From an uncultured Mesonia sp. (GTDB lineage Bacteria > Bacteroidota > Bacteroidia > Flavobacteriales > Flavobacteriaceae), in the NCBI GenBank assembly GCA_947499595.1, contig CANMOY010000002.1, positions 124,001-188,000 on the forward strand: a stretch of 64,000 nucleotides of DNA. Reading direction: 5' to 3'. The translations under genes and the position numbers were made by a program. Below the pieces are notes generated by a model. That model searched no databases and was not told the origin of the DNA. It saw nothing but the letters and a program-made list of their open reading frames with translations. Position 1 is the stretch's first letter. Each line of letters begins with the position of its first letter. Below are positions 30,873-59,379 of this stretch, in pieces.

Positions 30873-30979
30873 CGCATTCTATTTTAGCATTAATTTAAGT
30901 TCGTAAAAATATAAAAACAGCCCAAAGTCTTAACACTTGTGGCAATTTTTAAATCGGGATGAAATTACAAAAATTTATG

Positions 30980-30987
30980 TACTTTCG
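30980..30987 (+). promoter_or_regulatory. -7-like box (TACTTTCG) next to the holB start
   Basis: TACTTTCG differs from TAnnTTTG at one base and ends 4 nt before the ATG at 30992. This supports the shorter holB start, and would place the transcript start at or very near the ATG, giving a leaderless or nearly leaderless mRNA. Confidence 0.4.
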
Positions 30988-30991
30988 CTTT

Positions 30992-32152
30992 ATGGATTTT
31001 TCTTCTATAATCGGCTTAGATCATATTAAAAATCACTTGCAAAAAACCGCAAGTAAGCATGTTATTCCCCACGCTCAACTCTTTGTGGGTTCAACAGGAT
31101 TTGGTACCCTACCAATGGCTTTAGCTTATGCACAGTACATTTTAAGCGAATGTGGTCCCGAGAAGAACAAATCACAAGCCAAACAATATGTAAATGATTT
31201 ATCGCACCCCGATTTACATTTTGTTTTTCCTTCTGTTTTAAGAAAAGCCAATAAAAAGCAATCTAGCAAGGATTACCAAAGCGAATGGAAAAATTTCATA
31301 CAGGAAAATCTTTATGCAGACGAATATGCGTGGAACCAATACCTTGATGAGGAGAAAAAGCAAGGGATTATCAACGTTAGGGATGCCGAAAATATCTTAA
31401 AAGACGCGTCGTTAAAATCTTTTTCTGGCGGATATAAAGTCTTTATTATTTGGGGAGCAGACAAAATGAATAACGATTGTGCGAACAAGCTATTAAAATT
31501 GGTAGAAGAGCCGCCTTCAAAAACCGTATTGCTTTTACTTACTGCTCACGAAGACCGAATTATATCAACCATCAAATCTAGGTGTCAAGTTTTGCATTTT
31601 CCTCCTTTAGGAGAAGCGGTTTTAAGTGAGGCTTTAATTGAAAAGCAAATCGAGCCCAATTTAGCATTGCAAATTGCACAACAAGCCGAGGGTGATTTTC
31701 AAAAGGCATTAAAATTAATCAACCAATCTGAAACCGAAGAACTATTTGAAAAATGGTTTATCACCTGGGTACGTGCTGCCTTTAGAGCTAAAGGTAATAA
31801 AACGGCTATAAAAGATCTCATTAATTGGAGTACAGAGGTCGCTCAAACCGGTCGAGAAACCCAAAAGCAATTTTTATTATATTGTTTAAACTTTTTTAGA
31901 CAAGCCTTATTGCTTAATTATTCGGCAAACGATTTGGTACATCTTCAACCCAAAACTGCTGGTTTTAAATTAAAAAATTTCGCCCCTTTTATTCACGGGG
32001 GTAACATAATACCTATTCAAATAGAAATAGAAAAAGCGCTTTACCATATTGAGCGTAATGGAAATGATAAATTAATTTTGACCGATTTATCCATTCAACT
32101 TACGCGACTAATTCACAAGAAAGAACAAGAACTAAAAAAGGCTGCCGATTAG
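30992..32152 (+). CDS. holB: DNA polymerase III delta' subunit (HolB)
   Basis: Clamp-loader subunit of the replicative polymerase, 386 residues from ATG 30992 (MDFSSIIGLDHIKNHLQ). The frame is open 11 codons further upstream, but a -7-like box lies inside that extension. The AAA+ region opens with a degenerate Walker A (VGSTGFGTLPMA instead of GKT), as expected for a delta' subunit that does not hydrolyse ATP. NNDCANKLLKLVEEPPSKT matches the conserved NA-x-N-LLK-x-LEEPP block, and STIKSRCQVLHF follows. It stands alone and ends inside its own terminator hairpin. Confidence 0.92.
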   Translation: MDFSSIIGLDHIKNHLQKTASKHVIPHAQLFVGSTGFGTLPMALAYAQYILSECGPEKNKSQAKQYVNDLSHPDLHFVFPSVLRKANKKQSSKDYQSEWKNFIQENLYADEYAWNQYLDEEKKQGIINVRDAENILKDASLKSFSGGYKVFIIWGADKMNNDCANKLLKLVEEPPSKTVLLLLTAHEDRIISTIKSRCQVLHFPPLGEAVLSEALIEKQIEPNLALQIAQQAEGDFQKALKLINQSETEELFEKWFITWVRAAFRAKGNKTAIKDLINWSTEVAQTGRETQKQFLLYCLNFFRQALLLNYSANDLVHLQPKTAGFKLKNFAPFIHGGNIIPIQIEIEKALYHIERNGNDKLILTDLSIQLTRLIHKKEQELKKAAD

Positions 32153-34319: not shown

Positions 34320-34335
34320 TGTTCCACGTGAAACA
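34320..34335. promoter_or_regulatory. parS centromere site 1 (ParB binding)
   Basis: TGTTCCACGTGAAACA matches the 16-bp parS consensus TGTTNCACGTGAAACA at every defined position. It lies in the 37-bp gap between mnmG and the small lipoprotein gene. ParB bound here would load onto the chromosome for segregation; such sites cluster near replication origins in most bacteria. No parAB genes are in the window. Confidence 0.85.
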
Positions 34336-36225: not shown

Positions 36226-36645
36226 TTAATGTTCCACGTGGAACATATCAATTTTTTCATTCTCTTTTTCACGCATTATTCTCTTTTCAGCATCGGTCGC
36301 ATCACCGTATCCGCATAAATGCAAAATCCCATGTGCCATAACCCGTTTAAGTTCATTTTCAAAACTAACCCCAAATTTTTCGGCATTCTCTTTTACTTGA
36401 TCGGTAGAAATGTATATATCTGAAAACAACTCCCTACCTACCCTATAATCAAAAGTAATGATATCGGTATAGGTATCATGATTAAGATAGTCCTGATTAA
36501 TTTTAAGCAAAAAATCATCATCGCAAAAAACATAATTAATTTCGCCTAGACGATGCTTTTCAGATAAGATAATTTGGTTAATCCAGCGTTCATATTTCTG
36601 TGGAAAAGGAAGCTGAAAATCGTTTTCGTTATTAAAATGAATCAT
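36226..36645 (-). CDS. ybeY: Endoribonuclease YbeY
   Basis: A metal-dependent RNase involved in rRNA maturation, 139 residues. The zinc motif is HGILHLCGYGDATDAEK near residue 105: the first two His ligands are present, and the third position reads Asp in a GYGD context instead of the proteobacterial GYDH. That substitution is, from memory, common in this phylum. The last residues MFHVEH are encoded by a parS site that lies inside the coding region. It overlaps the DUF4175 gene by 14 bases and is 11 bases upstream of mnmG. Confidence 0.93.
   Translation of the reverse strand: MIHFNNENDFQLPFPQKYERWINQIILSEKHRLGEINYVFCDDDFLLKINQDYLNHDTYTDIITFDYRVGRELFSDIYISTDQVKENAEKFGVSFENELKRVMAHGILHLCGYGDATDAEKRIMREKENEKIDMFHVEH
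36230..36245. promoter_or_regulatory. parS centromere site 2 (fully palindromic)
   Basis: TGTTCCACGTGGAACA is a perfect 16-bp palindrome that differs from the parS consensus TGTTNCACGTGAAACA at one base. It is embedded in the last six codons of ybeY, 1.9 kb from the first site, with mnmG between them. Confidence 0.75.
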
Positions 36646-48797: not shown

Positions 48798-50990
48798 TTA
48801 AGATTCGGCATGACCTAATAAGTGAAAATCAAGATGCCTTTTAATTACATCGGCTTCTTTAACTTTTACCAACACATCATCTCCTAATTGATACACCTTT
48901 TTAGAATTTCTTCCGACTACAGCAAAATTTTCTGGGTCATAATCGTAGTGGTCATCATTTAAATCGCGTAAACGTACCATACCCTCACATTTATTTTCTT
49001 GTACTTCAATATAAATTCCCCACTCGGTTACACCAGAAATAACGCCTAAAAAGGTTTCGTCTTGATGATTCTTCATAAATTTTACTTGCATATACTTGAT
49101 CGAGTCGCGTTCTGCTTGTGTGGCAAAATTCTCCATGTCGCTACAATGATTGCATCGATCTTCATAAACTTCATCGTCTGGACTTGATTTCTGATCTAAA
49201 TAATGCTGCAATAAACGATGCGCCATAATATCTGGGTAACGTCTAATAGGGGAGGTAAAGTGACTATATGCGTCAAAAGCTAAGCCGTAGTGACCGATGT
49301 TTTTTGTACTATAATAAGCCTTACTCATACTTCGAATGGTAAGCGTATCAACCAGATTTTGTTCTTTTTTACCTTGTACTTCTTCTAGCAATCCGTTTAA
49401 GGAATTTGAAATAGCTTTAGGACTACTCAAATTAAGTTTGTAACCAAATTTAGCGACTAAAGTCTCTAAAGAAGTTAATTTTTCATCGTTAGGTTCATCG
49501 TGACAGCGGTATATAAAAGTTTTCTTTGGTTCTTGTTTAGCGATAAATTCGGCTACTTTTTTATTTGCCAACAACATGAATTCTTCGATTAATTTATTGG
49601 CGTCTTTGGCAGTTTTGAAAAATACACCTAAAGGTTCATTATCTTCATCTAAATTGAATTTAACTTCAACTTTATCAAATGAAATCGCCCCCGATTGCAT
49701 ACGTTTTTTACGTAAAATTTTAGCTAATTTGTCTAGACTCAATATCGCTTCAACGACCTTGGAATCGGCTTCATAGCTTTCGCCTTCAATTGCAATCTCT
49801 GCCGGTATCTTACCCTGCTTGGTTTCAATAATATGCTGCGCCTCTTCATAAGCAAAACGGGCGTCGCTATAGGTGACGGTTCTCCCAAACCATTGATTTA
49901 TAACTTTGGATTGTGCATTGAGTTCAAAAATAGCCGAAAAAGTAAATTTTTCTTCGTGAGGTCGCAAAGAACAAGCTTTATTTGATAAAATTTCTGGTAA
50001 CATAGGAATTACACGGTCAACTAAATAAATAGAAGTAGCCCTTTCGTATGCTTCATCATCTAAAGGGGTATTGGGTTGTACATAATGCGAAACATCGGCA
50101 ATATGAATCCCTATTTCTACATTTCCATTATCAAGAGTTCTAAAACTCAAAGCATCATCAAAGTCTTTGGCATCTTTAGGATCTATAGTAAAGGTTAGCA
50201 CCTCACGTAAATCTCTTCTTTTATTAATTTCTTGCTGGGTGATACTTGTATCTAGCTGTTGCGCAAATGTTTCTACTTCTTCTGGAAATTCGGCCGCAAT
50301 ATCATTGGTTGCCAGAATTCCTTTCATTTCTGTTTCGTGTTCTCCTGGTTTACCCAAAACTTCTATGATTTTCCCTAGTGGTGAATCTCCTTTCTTCTTC
50401 CATTCTTGAAGTTCAACCAAAACCAACATTCCATTTTCTGCTTTATCCAGTTGATCTTTCCCTATAAAAATATCGGTATACATTTTCGTATCATTCACCA
50501 CAACAAAACCAAAATTCTCTTGTTTGGCCAAGGTTCCTACAAATTTTGTTTTATTGCGTTTAACAATTTCAACCACTTCACCTTCGCTTCTTCTATTTCT
50601 TCTTTTGTTATAGATATAAATTTTTACCAAATCTCCATCTAAAGCTTTGTTAAGCTGATTATTGGGCACAAAAACATCATTGTCTTCATTTTCGAGCACA
50701 ATATAAGCATCACCCTTTGAAGTCATGTCAACTACGCCTTGGTAATAATTATGCTGTAAATTGATTTGAAATTTTCCTCGATCAACAGCTAAAATATCTT
50801 TTTTACCAGCCAATTGATTGAGTTTCTTTATTATTTGATTTCGGCCTGAAGCATCGTTAACCTTTAATTTGGCAGCTATTTGTTTGTAGTTAAAGCTTTT
50901 TTCTTGATGCTCACGCAATATGCTTAAAATCTTTTGAGATAGATTATTTATTTTATTTTGAGAGGATTTTTTCTTTTTTCTTTTTGTCAT
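48798..50990 (-). CDS. rnr: Ribonuclease R
   Basis: Processive 3'-5' exoribonuclease of RNA quality control, 730 residues. An N-terminal helix-turn-helix-like region (about 15-75, Lys-rich) is followed by two cold-shock domains (about 80-230). The RNB catalytic domain (about 260-590) has TFTIDPKDAKDFDDALSF with the metal-binding Asp cluster, IGIHIADVSHYV and FAFDAYSHFTSPIRRYPD-like text near 580. A C-terminal S1 domain lies at about 640-725. The length and order are normal. It is transcribed leftward, away from the candidate origin at 51.3-51.9 kb. Confidence 0.96.
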   Translation of the reverse strand: MTKRKKKKSSQNKINNLSQKILSILREHQEKSFNYKQIAAKLKVNDASGRNQIIKKLNQLAGKKDILAVDRGKFQINLQHNYYQGVVDMTSKGDAYIVLENEDNDVFVPNNQLNKALDGDLVKIYIYNKRRNRRSEGEVVEIVKRNKTKFVGTLAKQENFGFVVVNDTKMYTDIFIGKDQLDKAENGMLVLVELQEWKKKGDSPLGKIIEVLGKPGEHETEMKGILATNDIAAEFPEEVETFAQQLDTSITQQEINKRRDLREVLTFTIDPKDAKDFDDALSFRTLDNGNVEIGIHIADVSHYVQPNTPLDDEAYERATSIYLVDRVIPMLPEILSNKACSLRPHEEKFTFSAIFELNAQSKVINQWFGRTVTYSDARFAYEEAQHIIETKQGKIPAEIAIEGESYEADSKVVEAILSLDKLAKILRKKRMQSGAISFDKVEVKFNLDEDNEPLGVFFKTAKDANKLIEEFMLLANKKVAEFIAKQEPKKTFIYRCHDEPNDEKLTSLETLVAKFGYKLNLSSPKAISNSLNGLLEEVQGKKEQNLVDTLTIRSMSKAYYSTKNIGHYGLAFDAYSHFTSPIRRYPDIMAHRLLQHYLDQKSSPDDEVYEDRCNHCSDMENFATQAERDSIKYMQVKFMKNHQDETFLGVISGVTEWGIYIEVQENKCEGMVRLRDLNDDHYDYDPENFAVVGRNSKKVYQLGDDVLVKVKEADVIKRHLDFHLLGHAES

Positions 50991-51163: not shown

Positions 51164-51192
51164 AGGTATACATTACTAACAATCCATTTTTG

Positions 51193-51285: not shown

Positions 51286-51535
51286 ATAGGTAGTTTTAGT
51301 CTATCTATTTTTTTAAGTTTAATTCGGGTTCTTTTTCGCTTTAGCCAACTTATCAACATTCTATAGTATTATTATTTTCTTCTTATTTAAATTAAAAAAA
51401 AAATGATGATTATTATTGTTTGTGAATAGCGGTATAATTTTACATATCATTTTTTTGATTTATCATTAAACACAAAACTTAAACTAAATTTCTTGCATTT
51501 GTTAATAGTAAAATATTGATTTATATAGTTTTCGA

Positions 51536-51565
51536 TTCACTTATTAACAACTGTTAATAAGTGAA
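51536..51565. repeat. 30-bp palindrome in the candidate origin
   Basis: Arms of 14 bp (51536-51549, TTCACTTATTAACA, and 51552-51565, its exact complement) with a 2-nt spacer. Each arm contains a TTATTAACA 9-mer, so the palindrome is two head-to-head boxes. It is not followed by a T run and no gene ends near it, so a terminator is unlikely; a dimeric protein-binding site is more likely. Confidence 0.7.
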
Positions 51566-51837
51566 TTCACAATAGAATGTTTATTAAAGATTTTGAAAAA
51601 ACATGTTGATAAGTGTGAGATTACAGCATAAAACTTTTTTTAAAAAATAAATAACTTTACTTGACTTTGATAATTAAACGTTCATATTGAAATAAAAATG
51701 GAATAACCAAAAATAAGTTTTAAGAAAATATTAGCACTTATCAACAAAATGAGTGAATTATTAATTGCTTTAAGCTGAAGTGTTTATCATTTTTAATTAA
51801 CACACCTGTAAATAGTCATTCTGGCTGAAAAACTTCA

Positions 51838-51845
51838 TACCTTTG
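51838..51845 (+). promoter_or_regulatory. -7 box (TACCTTTG) for rpiB-CDF-GNAT
   Basis: Exact TAnnTTTG match 27 nt before the ATG at 51873. It overlaps the upstream end of the longer open frame (51843), supporting the shorter start. A -33 TTTG is not evident. Confidence 0.55.
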
Positions 51846-51872
51846 TCTCTATCAACAACACAAAATTTTATT

Positions 51873-52304
51873 ATGACCATCGCAATTGGAAACGATCATG
51901 CCGGTACGGCATACAAAAAAGCCATTATTAATCATCTAGAGAATAAAGGAGTAAAAGTAATTAATCATGGTACAGACCACGAAGAGAGTGTAGATTACCC
52001 AGATTTTATTCACCCTGTTGCTCAATCGGTAAGTGAGCAAAAGGTAGATTTAGGAATAATTATTTGCGGAAGCGGTAATGGTGCTGCTATGACCGCTAAT
52101 AAACATGCAGACGTGAGATGCGCTTTATGTTGGACCAAAGAGATAGTAGCACTAGCACGAGCACATAACGATGCAAATATATTAAGTATTCCTGCTCGTT
52201 TTACCAGTCTACCGCAAGCAATTGAAATGGTAGACACTTATTTAAGTACTCAATTTGAAGGGGGAAGACATCAAAACCGGGTAAATAAAATCGCTTGCCA
52301 ATAA
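51873..52304 (+). CDS. rpiB: Ribose-5-phosphate isomerase B
   Basis: Pentose-phosphate enzyme interconverting ribose-5-P and ribulose-5-P, 143 residues from ATG 51873. Motifs: AIGNDHAGTAYK at the start, DYPDFIHPVAQSV near residue 47, LGIIICGSGNGAAMTANK with the catalytic Cys near 66-82, and RAHNDANILSIPARF near 100-114. An extension to 51843 is rejected because the promoter box overlaps it. It is the first gene of a tight rightward run: CDF follows after 1 base and GNAT 2 bases after that. Confidence 0.94.
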   Translation: MTIAIGNDHAGTAYKKAIINHLENKGVKVINHGTDHEESVDYPDFIHPVAQSVSEQKVDLGIIICGSGNGAAMTANKHADVRCALCWTKEIVALARAHNDANILSIPARFTSLPQAIEMVDTYLSTQFEGGRHQNRVNKIACQ

Positions 52305-58281: not shown

Positions 58282-59379
58282 TTAAAATTCAAATTTAAGT
58301 TGTTTACCCATAATTGTTGTTGGTTCTTGCTTTACGGATGCATGTCCGGGCTTTTTTAAATTAGTTATTGATATTCCTACTAAACGCACCGAATTTTGCA
58401 ATTTTTCTTGATACAAAAGTGTCTTTGCATTTTCGAGAATAAGTGCTTTATCTCGAATGTAAAAAGCTAGGGTTTTACTTCTAGTTTGTACACTAAAATC
58501 GCCATATTTTATTTTAAGAGTAATGGTTTTGCCTGAGAATTTATTTTTGTCTAGGCGCTGAGCTACTTCTGTAGCAATTTGGCTTAAGCGTTCTTCAAGA
58601 AAAATTTCAGAACTAATATTATTTGAAAAAGTGCGCTCGGCACCAACAGATTTACGTATTCGCTCTGGCTTCACTTCACTTAGGTGCACCCCTCTTACAA
58701 CTTGGTAATATAATTTACCGCTTTTCCCAAAATGATTTTCTAAAAATTCTAGTGATTTTAATTTTAAATCTGAACCCTTAAAAATTCCAAGCTGATACAT
58801 TTTTTGTGCGGTAACTTTACCAACACCAAAAAACTTTTTTATTTCTAAATCTTCTAAAAATTGTTCAACTTCCTCGGGAGGTACAGTTTTTTGCCCGTTA
58901 GGCTTGTTTATATCACTAGCAATTTTAGCTACAAATTTATTAATTGAAATGCCTGCAGAAGCATTAAGCCCAGTTTTCTCTTTTATTTCTGTTCGTATTA
59001 ACCGGGCAATTTGTGTTGCGCTACCTAAGTCTTTTAAGTTTTCAGTGACGTCTAAATAAGCTTCGTCAAGCGATAAAGGCTCGACTAAAGGCGTATAATT
59101 TAAAAAGATGCTGCGTATTTGCGCAGATATTTCTTTATAACGTTCAAATCGTGGTTTTACAAAAATTAAATCCGCGCAAAGCTTACTAGCTAATCTACCA
59201 CTCATCGCGCTTCGAACCCCAAATTTACGGGCCTCATAGCTGGCGGCGGCCACCACACCTCTTTTACCGCCACCGCCTACTGCAATGGGTTTATCTTGTA
59301 AATCTGGATGATCCAGTTGCTCAACAGAGGCGTAAAATGCATCCATATCTATATGTATTATTTTGCGCTCTTTTGTCAT
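58282..59379 (-). CDS. dinB: DNA polymerase IV (Y-family, DinB)
   Basis: Error-prone translesion polymerase, 365 residues. Catalytic motifs: HIDMDAFYASVEQ (residues 8-20) with two metal-binding Asp, YEARKFGVRSAM near 48, and PLSLDEAYLDVTE near 100-112 with the Asp-Glu pair. The thumb HhH region (KFFGVGKVTAQKMYQLG) is near 180, and a little-finger domain follows. The C-terminus ends QLKFEF, which resembles a beta-clamp-binding peptide (QL-x-L/F). Its -7 box TAACTTTG ends only 4 nt before the ATG, suggesting a leaderless mRNA. It is divergent from the CYTH gene. Confidence 0.95.
   Translation of the reverse strand: MTKERKIIHIDMDAFYASVEQLDHPDLQDKPIAVGGGGKRGVVAAASYEARKFGVRSAMSGRLASKLCADLIFVKPRFERYKEISAQIRSIFLNYTPLVEPLSLDEAYLDVTENLKDLGSATQIARLIRTEIKEKTGLNASAGISINKFVAKIASDINKPNGQKTVPPEEVEQFLEDLEIKKFFGVGKVTAQKMYQLGIFKGSDLKLKSLEFLENHFGKSGKLYYQVVRGVHLSEVKPERIRKSVGAERTFSNNISSEIFLEERLSQIATEVAQRLDKNKFSGKTITLKIKYGDFSVQTRSKTLAFYIRDKALILENAKTLLYQEKLQNSVRLVGISITNLKKPGHASVKQEPTTIMGKQLKFEF

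Follow-up and report, generated by a model that had tools for sequence, protein, structure and literature searches.

Does the long gap between rnr and rpiB in this Mesonia genome hold the chromosomal replication origin, or does it carry DnaA boxes for some other reason? The gap lies in a window of 64,000 nucleotides, positions 124001-188000 of contig C2 (408 kb), in a genome of 2.72 Mb and 70 contigs (G000). An earlier note on this DNA had proposed that the gap is oriC; its claims are taken up below together with the results that bear on them.

The box array in the rnr-rpiB gap

The gap measures 882 bp and is 78.6% A+T and, as previously described, is non-coding DNA between divergent genes (Table 1). 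It contains five exact copies of TTATYAACA (boxes A, D, D', E and F) versus 0.149 expected, which bears out the claim of at least five exact 9-mers in both orientations. The two one-mismatch copies also claimed are present, but the array in fact has three (boxes B, C and G); weaker one-mismatch copies lie to its left, at 51173 and 51224. The box had been noted to be one base off the classical consensus, a departure that fits the lineage, the Flavobacteriaceae consensus for box B being CTATTAACA.

One possibility is that A+T-rich 9-mers have built up by chance in a long non-coding gap. The composition of the gap would favour this, as would the background level of TTATYAACA genome-wide (122 copies versus 127 for the reversed control). 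However, none of 5000 dinucleotide shuffles of the gap contained five copies (the maximum was three), the sites align over 15 Mesonia genomes, and the module formed by boxes A and B is found family-wide (see below). Shuffling and conservation together rule out a chance cluster, whose probability I regard as negligible. Clustering, and not rarity of the 9-mer, is the exceptional feature of the array. The earlier note had envisaged that such clusters might occur at unrelated loci; when box-like 9-mers were scored per 500-bp span over 400 kb of the 408 kb of C2, the gap came out as the top cluster, with a score of 19 against 7 for the second place.

Two more triplets of TTATYAACA inside 500 bp were seen among the 100 of 122 places listed, at C2:399983-400449 and C4:145435-145798; they could be DnaA-titration sites or chance. 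The sequence TTATCCACA is absent from the array and from the 400 kb of C2, on which 2-3 copies are expected. Genome-wide it occurs 8 times versus 36 for the reversed pattern, and avoidance of strong DnaA sites is possible. The palindrome around D and D' consists of two facing TTATTAACA boxes, makes a strong DNA hairpin and is intact in this genome alone of the 15 aligned.

Table 1. Features of the predicted origin and its surroundings, in window coordinates
Feature	Position	Strand	Remarks
parS site	34320..34335		perfect-site search
parS site, perfect palindrome	36230..36245		perfect-site search
rnr, ribonuclease R	48798..50990	-	TIGR02063
Conserved module: box A, A+T-rich putative unwinding segment, box B, GCGG	51348..51441	+	model R1, alignment A1
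DnaA box A, TTATCAACA	51350..51358	+	exact TTATYAACA; position aligned in 15 Mesonia genomes
A+T-rich 62-bp segment between inward-facing A and B	51359..51420		putative DNA unwinding element
DnaA box B, CTATTCACA	51421..51429	-	one mismatch; followed by GCGG, invariant in 15 Mesonia genomes
Box C, CTATTAACA	51500..51508	-	one mismatch; TGTTAAT invariant in Mesonia alignment
Palindrome around boxes D and D', 15-nt arms	51535..51566		DNA fold z -6.8
DnaA box D, TTATTAACA	51541..51549	+	exact; Mesonia comparison
DnaA box D', TTATTAACA	51552..51560	-	exact; in alignment common only to closest relative, L023
DnaA box E, TTATCAACA	51604..51612	-	exact; Mesonia comparison
DnaA box F, TTATCAACA	51738..51746	+	exact; TTATTCACA or TTATCCACA in several relatives
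Box G, TAATTAACA	51794..51802	+	one mismatch; AATTAACA invariant in Mesonia alignment
TACCTTTG	51838..51845	+	invariant in 15 Mesonia genomes
rpiB, ribose 5-phosphate isomerase B	51873..52304	+	TIGR01120

The comparison within the genus covers 15 of 16 Mesonia genomes (L024, with only 260 bp upstream, was dropped), in which rpiB identity goes down to 68%; among named relatives, Mesonia sp. HuA40 has the rpiB closest to the one studied here (97%), followed by an uncultured Mesonia (92%). Upstream of rpiB, 11 of the 15 carry three or more exact boxes, at about -520, -327, -263 and -129 from the gene or with the same spacing shifted by 3-40 bp, and the other four have one exact box each plus aligned variants. 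The A+T-rich tract between A and B is conserved across Mesonia.

Strand asymmetry, parS and dnaA

The cumulative GC skew of C2 is V-shaped: it falls to 202,348 and then climbs, the array being located at 175.3-175.8 kb. A skew minimum is thus found on the same contig as the array, as the proposed origin would have it, but 27 kb to its right. To the left of the array, top-strand skew at third positions runs from -0.100 up to nearly zero (-0.001); between 175.8 and 205 kb it is positive for genes of either strand (0.020 and 0.065). In a change-point scan of third positions corrected for gene strand, a break gains 88.4 lnL units over no break; the optimum is at 192 kb, positions from 184 to 202 kb come within 5 lnL units of it, and a break at 175 kb costs 6.7 units. 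The offset between skew minimum and array is therefore 27 kb raw and 9-27 kb strand-corrected, along a curve that is nearly flat over C2 176-202 kb. Gene orientation had been invoked as a sign of co-directional replication. This holds on the left side, where 84% of coding length in C2 116-175 kb is on the minus strand, but not on the right, where the share of leftward coding length is also 84% (175.8-205 kb). Because of this leftward block, the raw minimum may be shifted rightward. I read the 27-kb offset, the main discordant result in the genome itself, as local rearrangement or noise. The interval C2:175.8-202 kb combines a near-zero plateau of corrected skew with a leftward gene block and may have undergone a recent inversion.

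An alternative explanation is that the array is a DnaA-regulated promoter, of rpiB or rnr, or a datA-like titration site, with the true origin at the skew minimum 9-27 kb farther right. The best-fitting skew break, at 184-202 kb, is in keeping with this, and so is the position of the array between divergent genes, one of which, rpiB, has a conserved TACCTTTG that is presumably the -7 element of its promoter (consensus TAnnTTTG). However, an exact box occurs in none of the gaps longer than 250 bp in C2 176-212 kb. One such gap in C2 176-202 kb carries two one-mismatch copies, and a single exact TTATTAACA lies beside the raw minimum, at C2:202,397. Together with the comparative evidence presented below, this makes the alternative improbable.

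Two parS sites had been reported 15-17 kb from the array. They are there, on its left side, and constitute the sole perfect pair of TGTTNCACGTGNAACA sites in the genome (C2:158,320 and C2:160,230; perfect matches only were sought genome-wide). The two sites flank mnmG, one on each side; mnmG (gidA) and rnpA had both been placed near the array, correctly. A DNA polymerase IV gene (58282-59379) and a DNA polymerase III delta-prime-like gene (30959-32152, below the curated cut-off) are likewise within about 20 kb of the predicted origin. The genome encodes DnaA (PF00308 at C1:138082-138567, E 7.4e-62, with solved DnaA structures among the relatives), and the location of dnaA, which the earlier note had left to be checked, is on a contig other than that of the array. 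As an origin marker dnaA was rejected, since it is on C1 and 20 sampled stretches of this contig gave no clear skew minimum beside the gene. The same separation is seen in all six one- or two-contig family genomes for which both are listed (G041, G048, G051, G052, G059 and G067), where 0.9 Mb or more of contig separates dnaA from the A-B module. Finished genomes are commonly numbered from dnaA, and the G041 sequence does begin there. Given the skew minimum on the same contig, the top box cluster, a dnaA located elsewhere and the sole perfect parS pair, the array should be oriC or its close neighbourhood.

Skew was also determined in complete relatives. Twelve genomes were picked by rpiB rank from 30 single-contig ones before their skew was known (G052, near a contig end, was skipped), and 40 kb per side, as two 20-kb stretches, was used at 40-110 kb from rpiB. 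In all 12, rnr is divergent upstream of rpiB and the A-B module is present (E<=3.1e-10), seven of them being training genomes of the module model (G216, G067, G113, G151, G180, G041 and G082). Skew rises from left to right across rpiB in 11 of the 12 (differences 0.041 to 0.281), going from negative to positive in 10; in G180 it rises and stays negative on the right, and in G113 it is flat (-0.009). A rise across the locus in so many genomes argues against a promoter or titration site with the origin elsewhere. In G041, sampled every 200 kb, skew is -0.112 at 0.8 Mb and +0.134 at 1.0 Mb, on either side of the module at 0.912 Mb; the sampled cumulative minimum, summed by hand, is at the module, and a further sign change occurs at 2.6-2.8 Mb. 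In G106, where sampling stops 0.55 Mb before the end, hand summation puts the cumulative minimum of the sampled stretches at 1.3-1.5 Mb, away from the module at 2.29 Mb; skew is positive for 1.2 Mb to the right of the module, at which the positive arm begins.

The A-B module in the Flavobacteriaceae

Box A on the plus strand, about 62 A+T-rich bp and box B on the minus strand make up a layout that can be searched for. A pattern in which the two boxes begin 69-73 bp apart was positive in 44 of 74 upstream regions, which include some second fetches of one genome. Alignment A1 and the 101-position model R1 comprise 34 loci, the 30 pattern-negative regions having been left out along with 10 of the 44 positive ones (eight close relatives or duplicates, plus L061 and L140). 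As a test for one origin per chromosome, R1 gave one strong match in the genome under study (E 4.3e-15, next best 0.032), whose own sequence is in the training set, and matched 149 of 199 Flavobacteriaceae genomes at E<=4.1e-7, including five that the pattern had missed (G104, G144, G059, G194 and G224). The 50 family genomes without a match at this threshold have best values of 4.5e-7 to 0.67.

Once the 18 training genomes are set aside, together with G005, which hardly differs from the genome under study, 130 of the 149 remain; a few training loci from named contigs could still belong to the species of some of these. Among the matches listed, rpiB is on the contig of the module in 104 of the 130: in 97 it follows the module in the same orientation by no more than 1.5 kb (median distance among these, 524 bp), in 103 it is within 5 kb and in one it is 18 kb away. 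Similarly, rnr is on the module's contig in 110 of the 130 (again among the matches listed), divergent within 1.5 kb in 95 and within 5 kb in 106. The exceptions are informative as to function. G106 and G170 have no rpiB match, yet a strong module near rnr; rnr is 5.5-8.3 kb from the module in G071, G086 and G171, and it is in G086 that rpiB is 18 kb away. In G156 a weaker match (1.2e-7) lies elsewhere in the genome. Since the module is kept where rpiB is not detected or the genes are distant, these genomes disfavour the reading that it is an rpiB or rnr regulatory element only; comparatively, the array is independent of rpiB and of the immediate neighbourhood of rnr. The same genomes count against the broader alternative of a DnaA-regulated promoter or titration site.

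In a sample of 198 genomes from the phylum, 22 match R1 at E<=0.001. They comprise 18 of the 19 same-family genomes listed (four of the 18 being training genomes, and some matches weak or partial) and 4 of the other 179 genomes, in which the matches are weak and cover part of the model; the listing, whose order seems to be by kinship, leaves out 156 genomes without a match. R1 locates the likely oriC even in draft assemblies.

The box cluster, the skew minimum on the same contig, the parS pair, the conserved module and the skew rise in 11 of 12 complete genomes all support the original proposal of oriC between rnr and rpiB. The array is very probably the chromosomal replication origin that these sequence features predict. 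Initiation could then proceed as follows. DnaA, made from its distant gene, would bind boxes A to G; the inward-facing A and B would bracket the 62-bp A+T-rich segment, which would be opened first; helicase would load there, and forks would depart both ways. ParB acting on the two parS sites 15-17 kb away would aid segregation of the new origins.

Relation to known origins and to DnaA

Boxes beside rpiB extend beyond the family. In the 700 bp upstream of rpiB at 65 other-family loci, assigned by kinship or by record title (two titles look misassigned), TTAT[CT][CA]ACA occurs 42 times versus 4.0 expected from shuffling. Over 66 loci, counted irrespective of relatedness, the stretch upstream of rpiB averages 0.636 boxes per 700 bp, versus 0.016-0.162 in ten other, largely coding bins of the same loci. 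At least one box is found at 22 of the 66 (including L124, L085, L114 and L129), in Bacteroidales and other Bacteroidota. Since 44 loci have none, the enrichment holds for part of the phylum, or another box consensus is needed. Judged by this ten-fold enrichment outside the family, an origin beside rpiB may be older than the Flavobacteriaceae.

Helix 5 of DnaA reads DHATV at 29 of 30 family loci and DHSTV at one. The best solved DnaA match, 8btg, which I take to be the B. subtilis protein, has DHTTV. In E. coli DnaA, residues 432-435 are listed among the base-contacting ones (PMC5043019). The alanine of the family helix would go with the A at box position 6. A joint reading is that a Bacteroidota origin beside rpiB, detached from dnaA, predates the split of the Flavobacteriaceae, and that the family evolved an opening module of two facing DnaA boxes over a nearly fixed A+T-rich tract of ~62 bp, read by a DHATV (not DHTTV) DnaA that accepts A at box position 6. 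I put this forward tentatively, with chances a little short of even.

The Mesonia locus would be an ordinary DnaA-type oriC, unlinked to dnaA, of a kind already known. E. coli oriC adjoins mnmG/gidA and, like it, the Mesonia locus combines a box array with an A+T-rich unwinding segment, mnmG being about 15 kb away; unlike it, the array lacks TTATCCACA. In Prevotella intermedia OMA14, oriC is unlinked to dnaA, a separation described, with reference to DoriC, as common in the phylum (PMC4755523). That origin, too, is intergenic, has several boxes, sits at a skew transition and is remote from dnaA; it was predicted by Ori-Finder with E. coli boxes, and the likeness is one of description, not of sequence. 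The passages of PMC4755523 on this origin say nothing of an rnr/rpiB setting or of an A-B module.

The basal unwinding system (BUS) in B. subtilis incC is described as DnaA boxes plus DnaA-trios (PMC6669920, PMC8287927). As in that system, a DnaA box of the Mesonia locus adjoins an A+T-rich tract in which NAN repeats lie on the strand that leaves the box as a 5' tail; in contrast to it, two boxes face each other across the tract, and the locus is not beside dnaA. Under the published rule, three or more NAN trinucleotides must occur no farther than 16 bp from a DnaA box (PMC8287927); the strand was chosen here from the "5'-tail" wording and known examples. Over the 34 loci of the alignment, NAN runs on the box A side average 5.29 versus 3.69 in single-base shuffles, with at least three in 32 of 34 (77% of shuffles); on the box B side they average 3.50 versus 2.70, with at least three in 25 of 34 (49% of shuffles). 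Runs modestly longer than shuffled are compatible with, and not proof of, BUS-type opening at the A-B segment. A strict DnaA-trio reading of this segment is possible, the published pattern being one that A+T-rich DNA readily satisfies.

Literature searches turned up no publication that places the Flavobacteriaceae origin at rnr-rpiB, or that describes the A-B module or the enrichment of boxes next to rpiB in other families; DoriC, which lay outside the search, may list the origin. In many relatives within the family the same small DNA layout marks the probable origin, which would make it findable in unfinished genomes. Locating oriC by the module would serve estimates of growth rate from read coverage, the design of minichromosomes and work on initiation in bacteria other than E. 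coli and B. subtilis. The A-B module also offers a defined substrate of ~100 bp for unwinding assays. If the origin beside rpiB is indeed older than the family, the position of the origin would have outlived much of the gene order in Bacteroidota.
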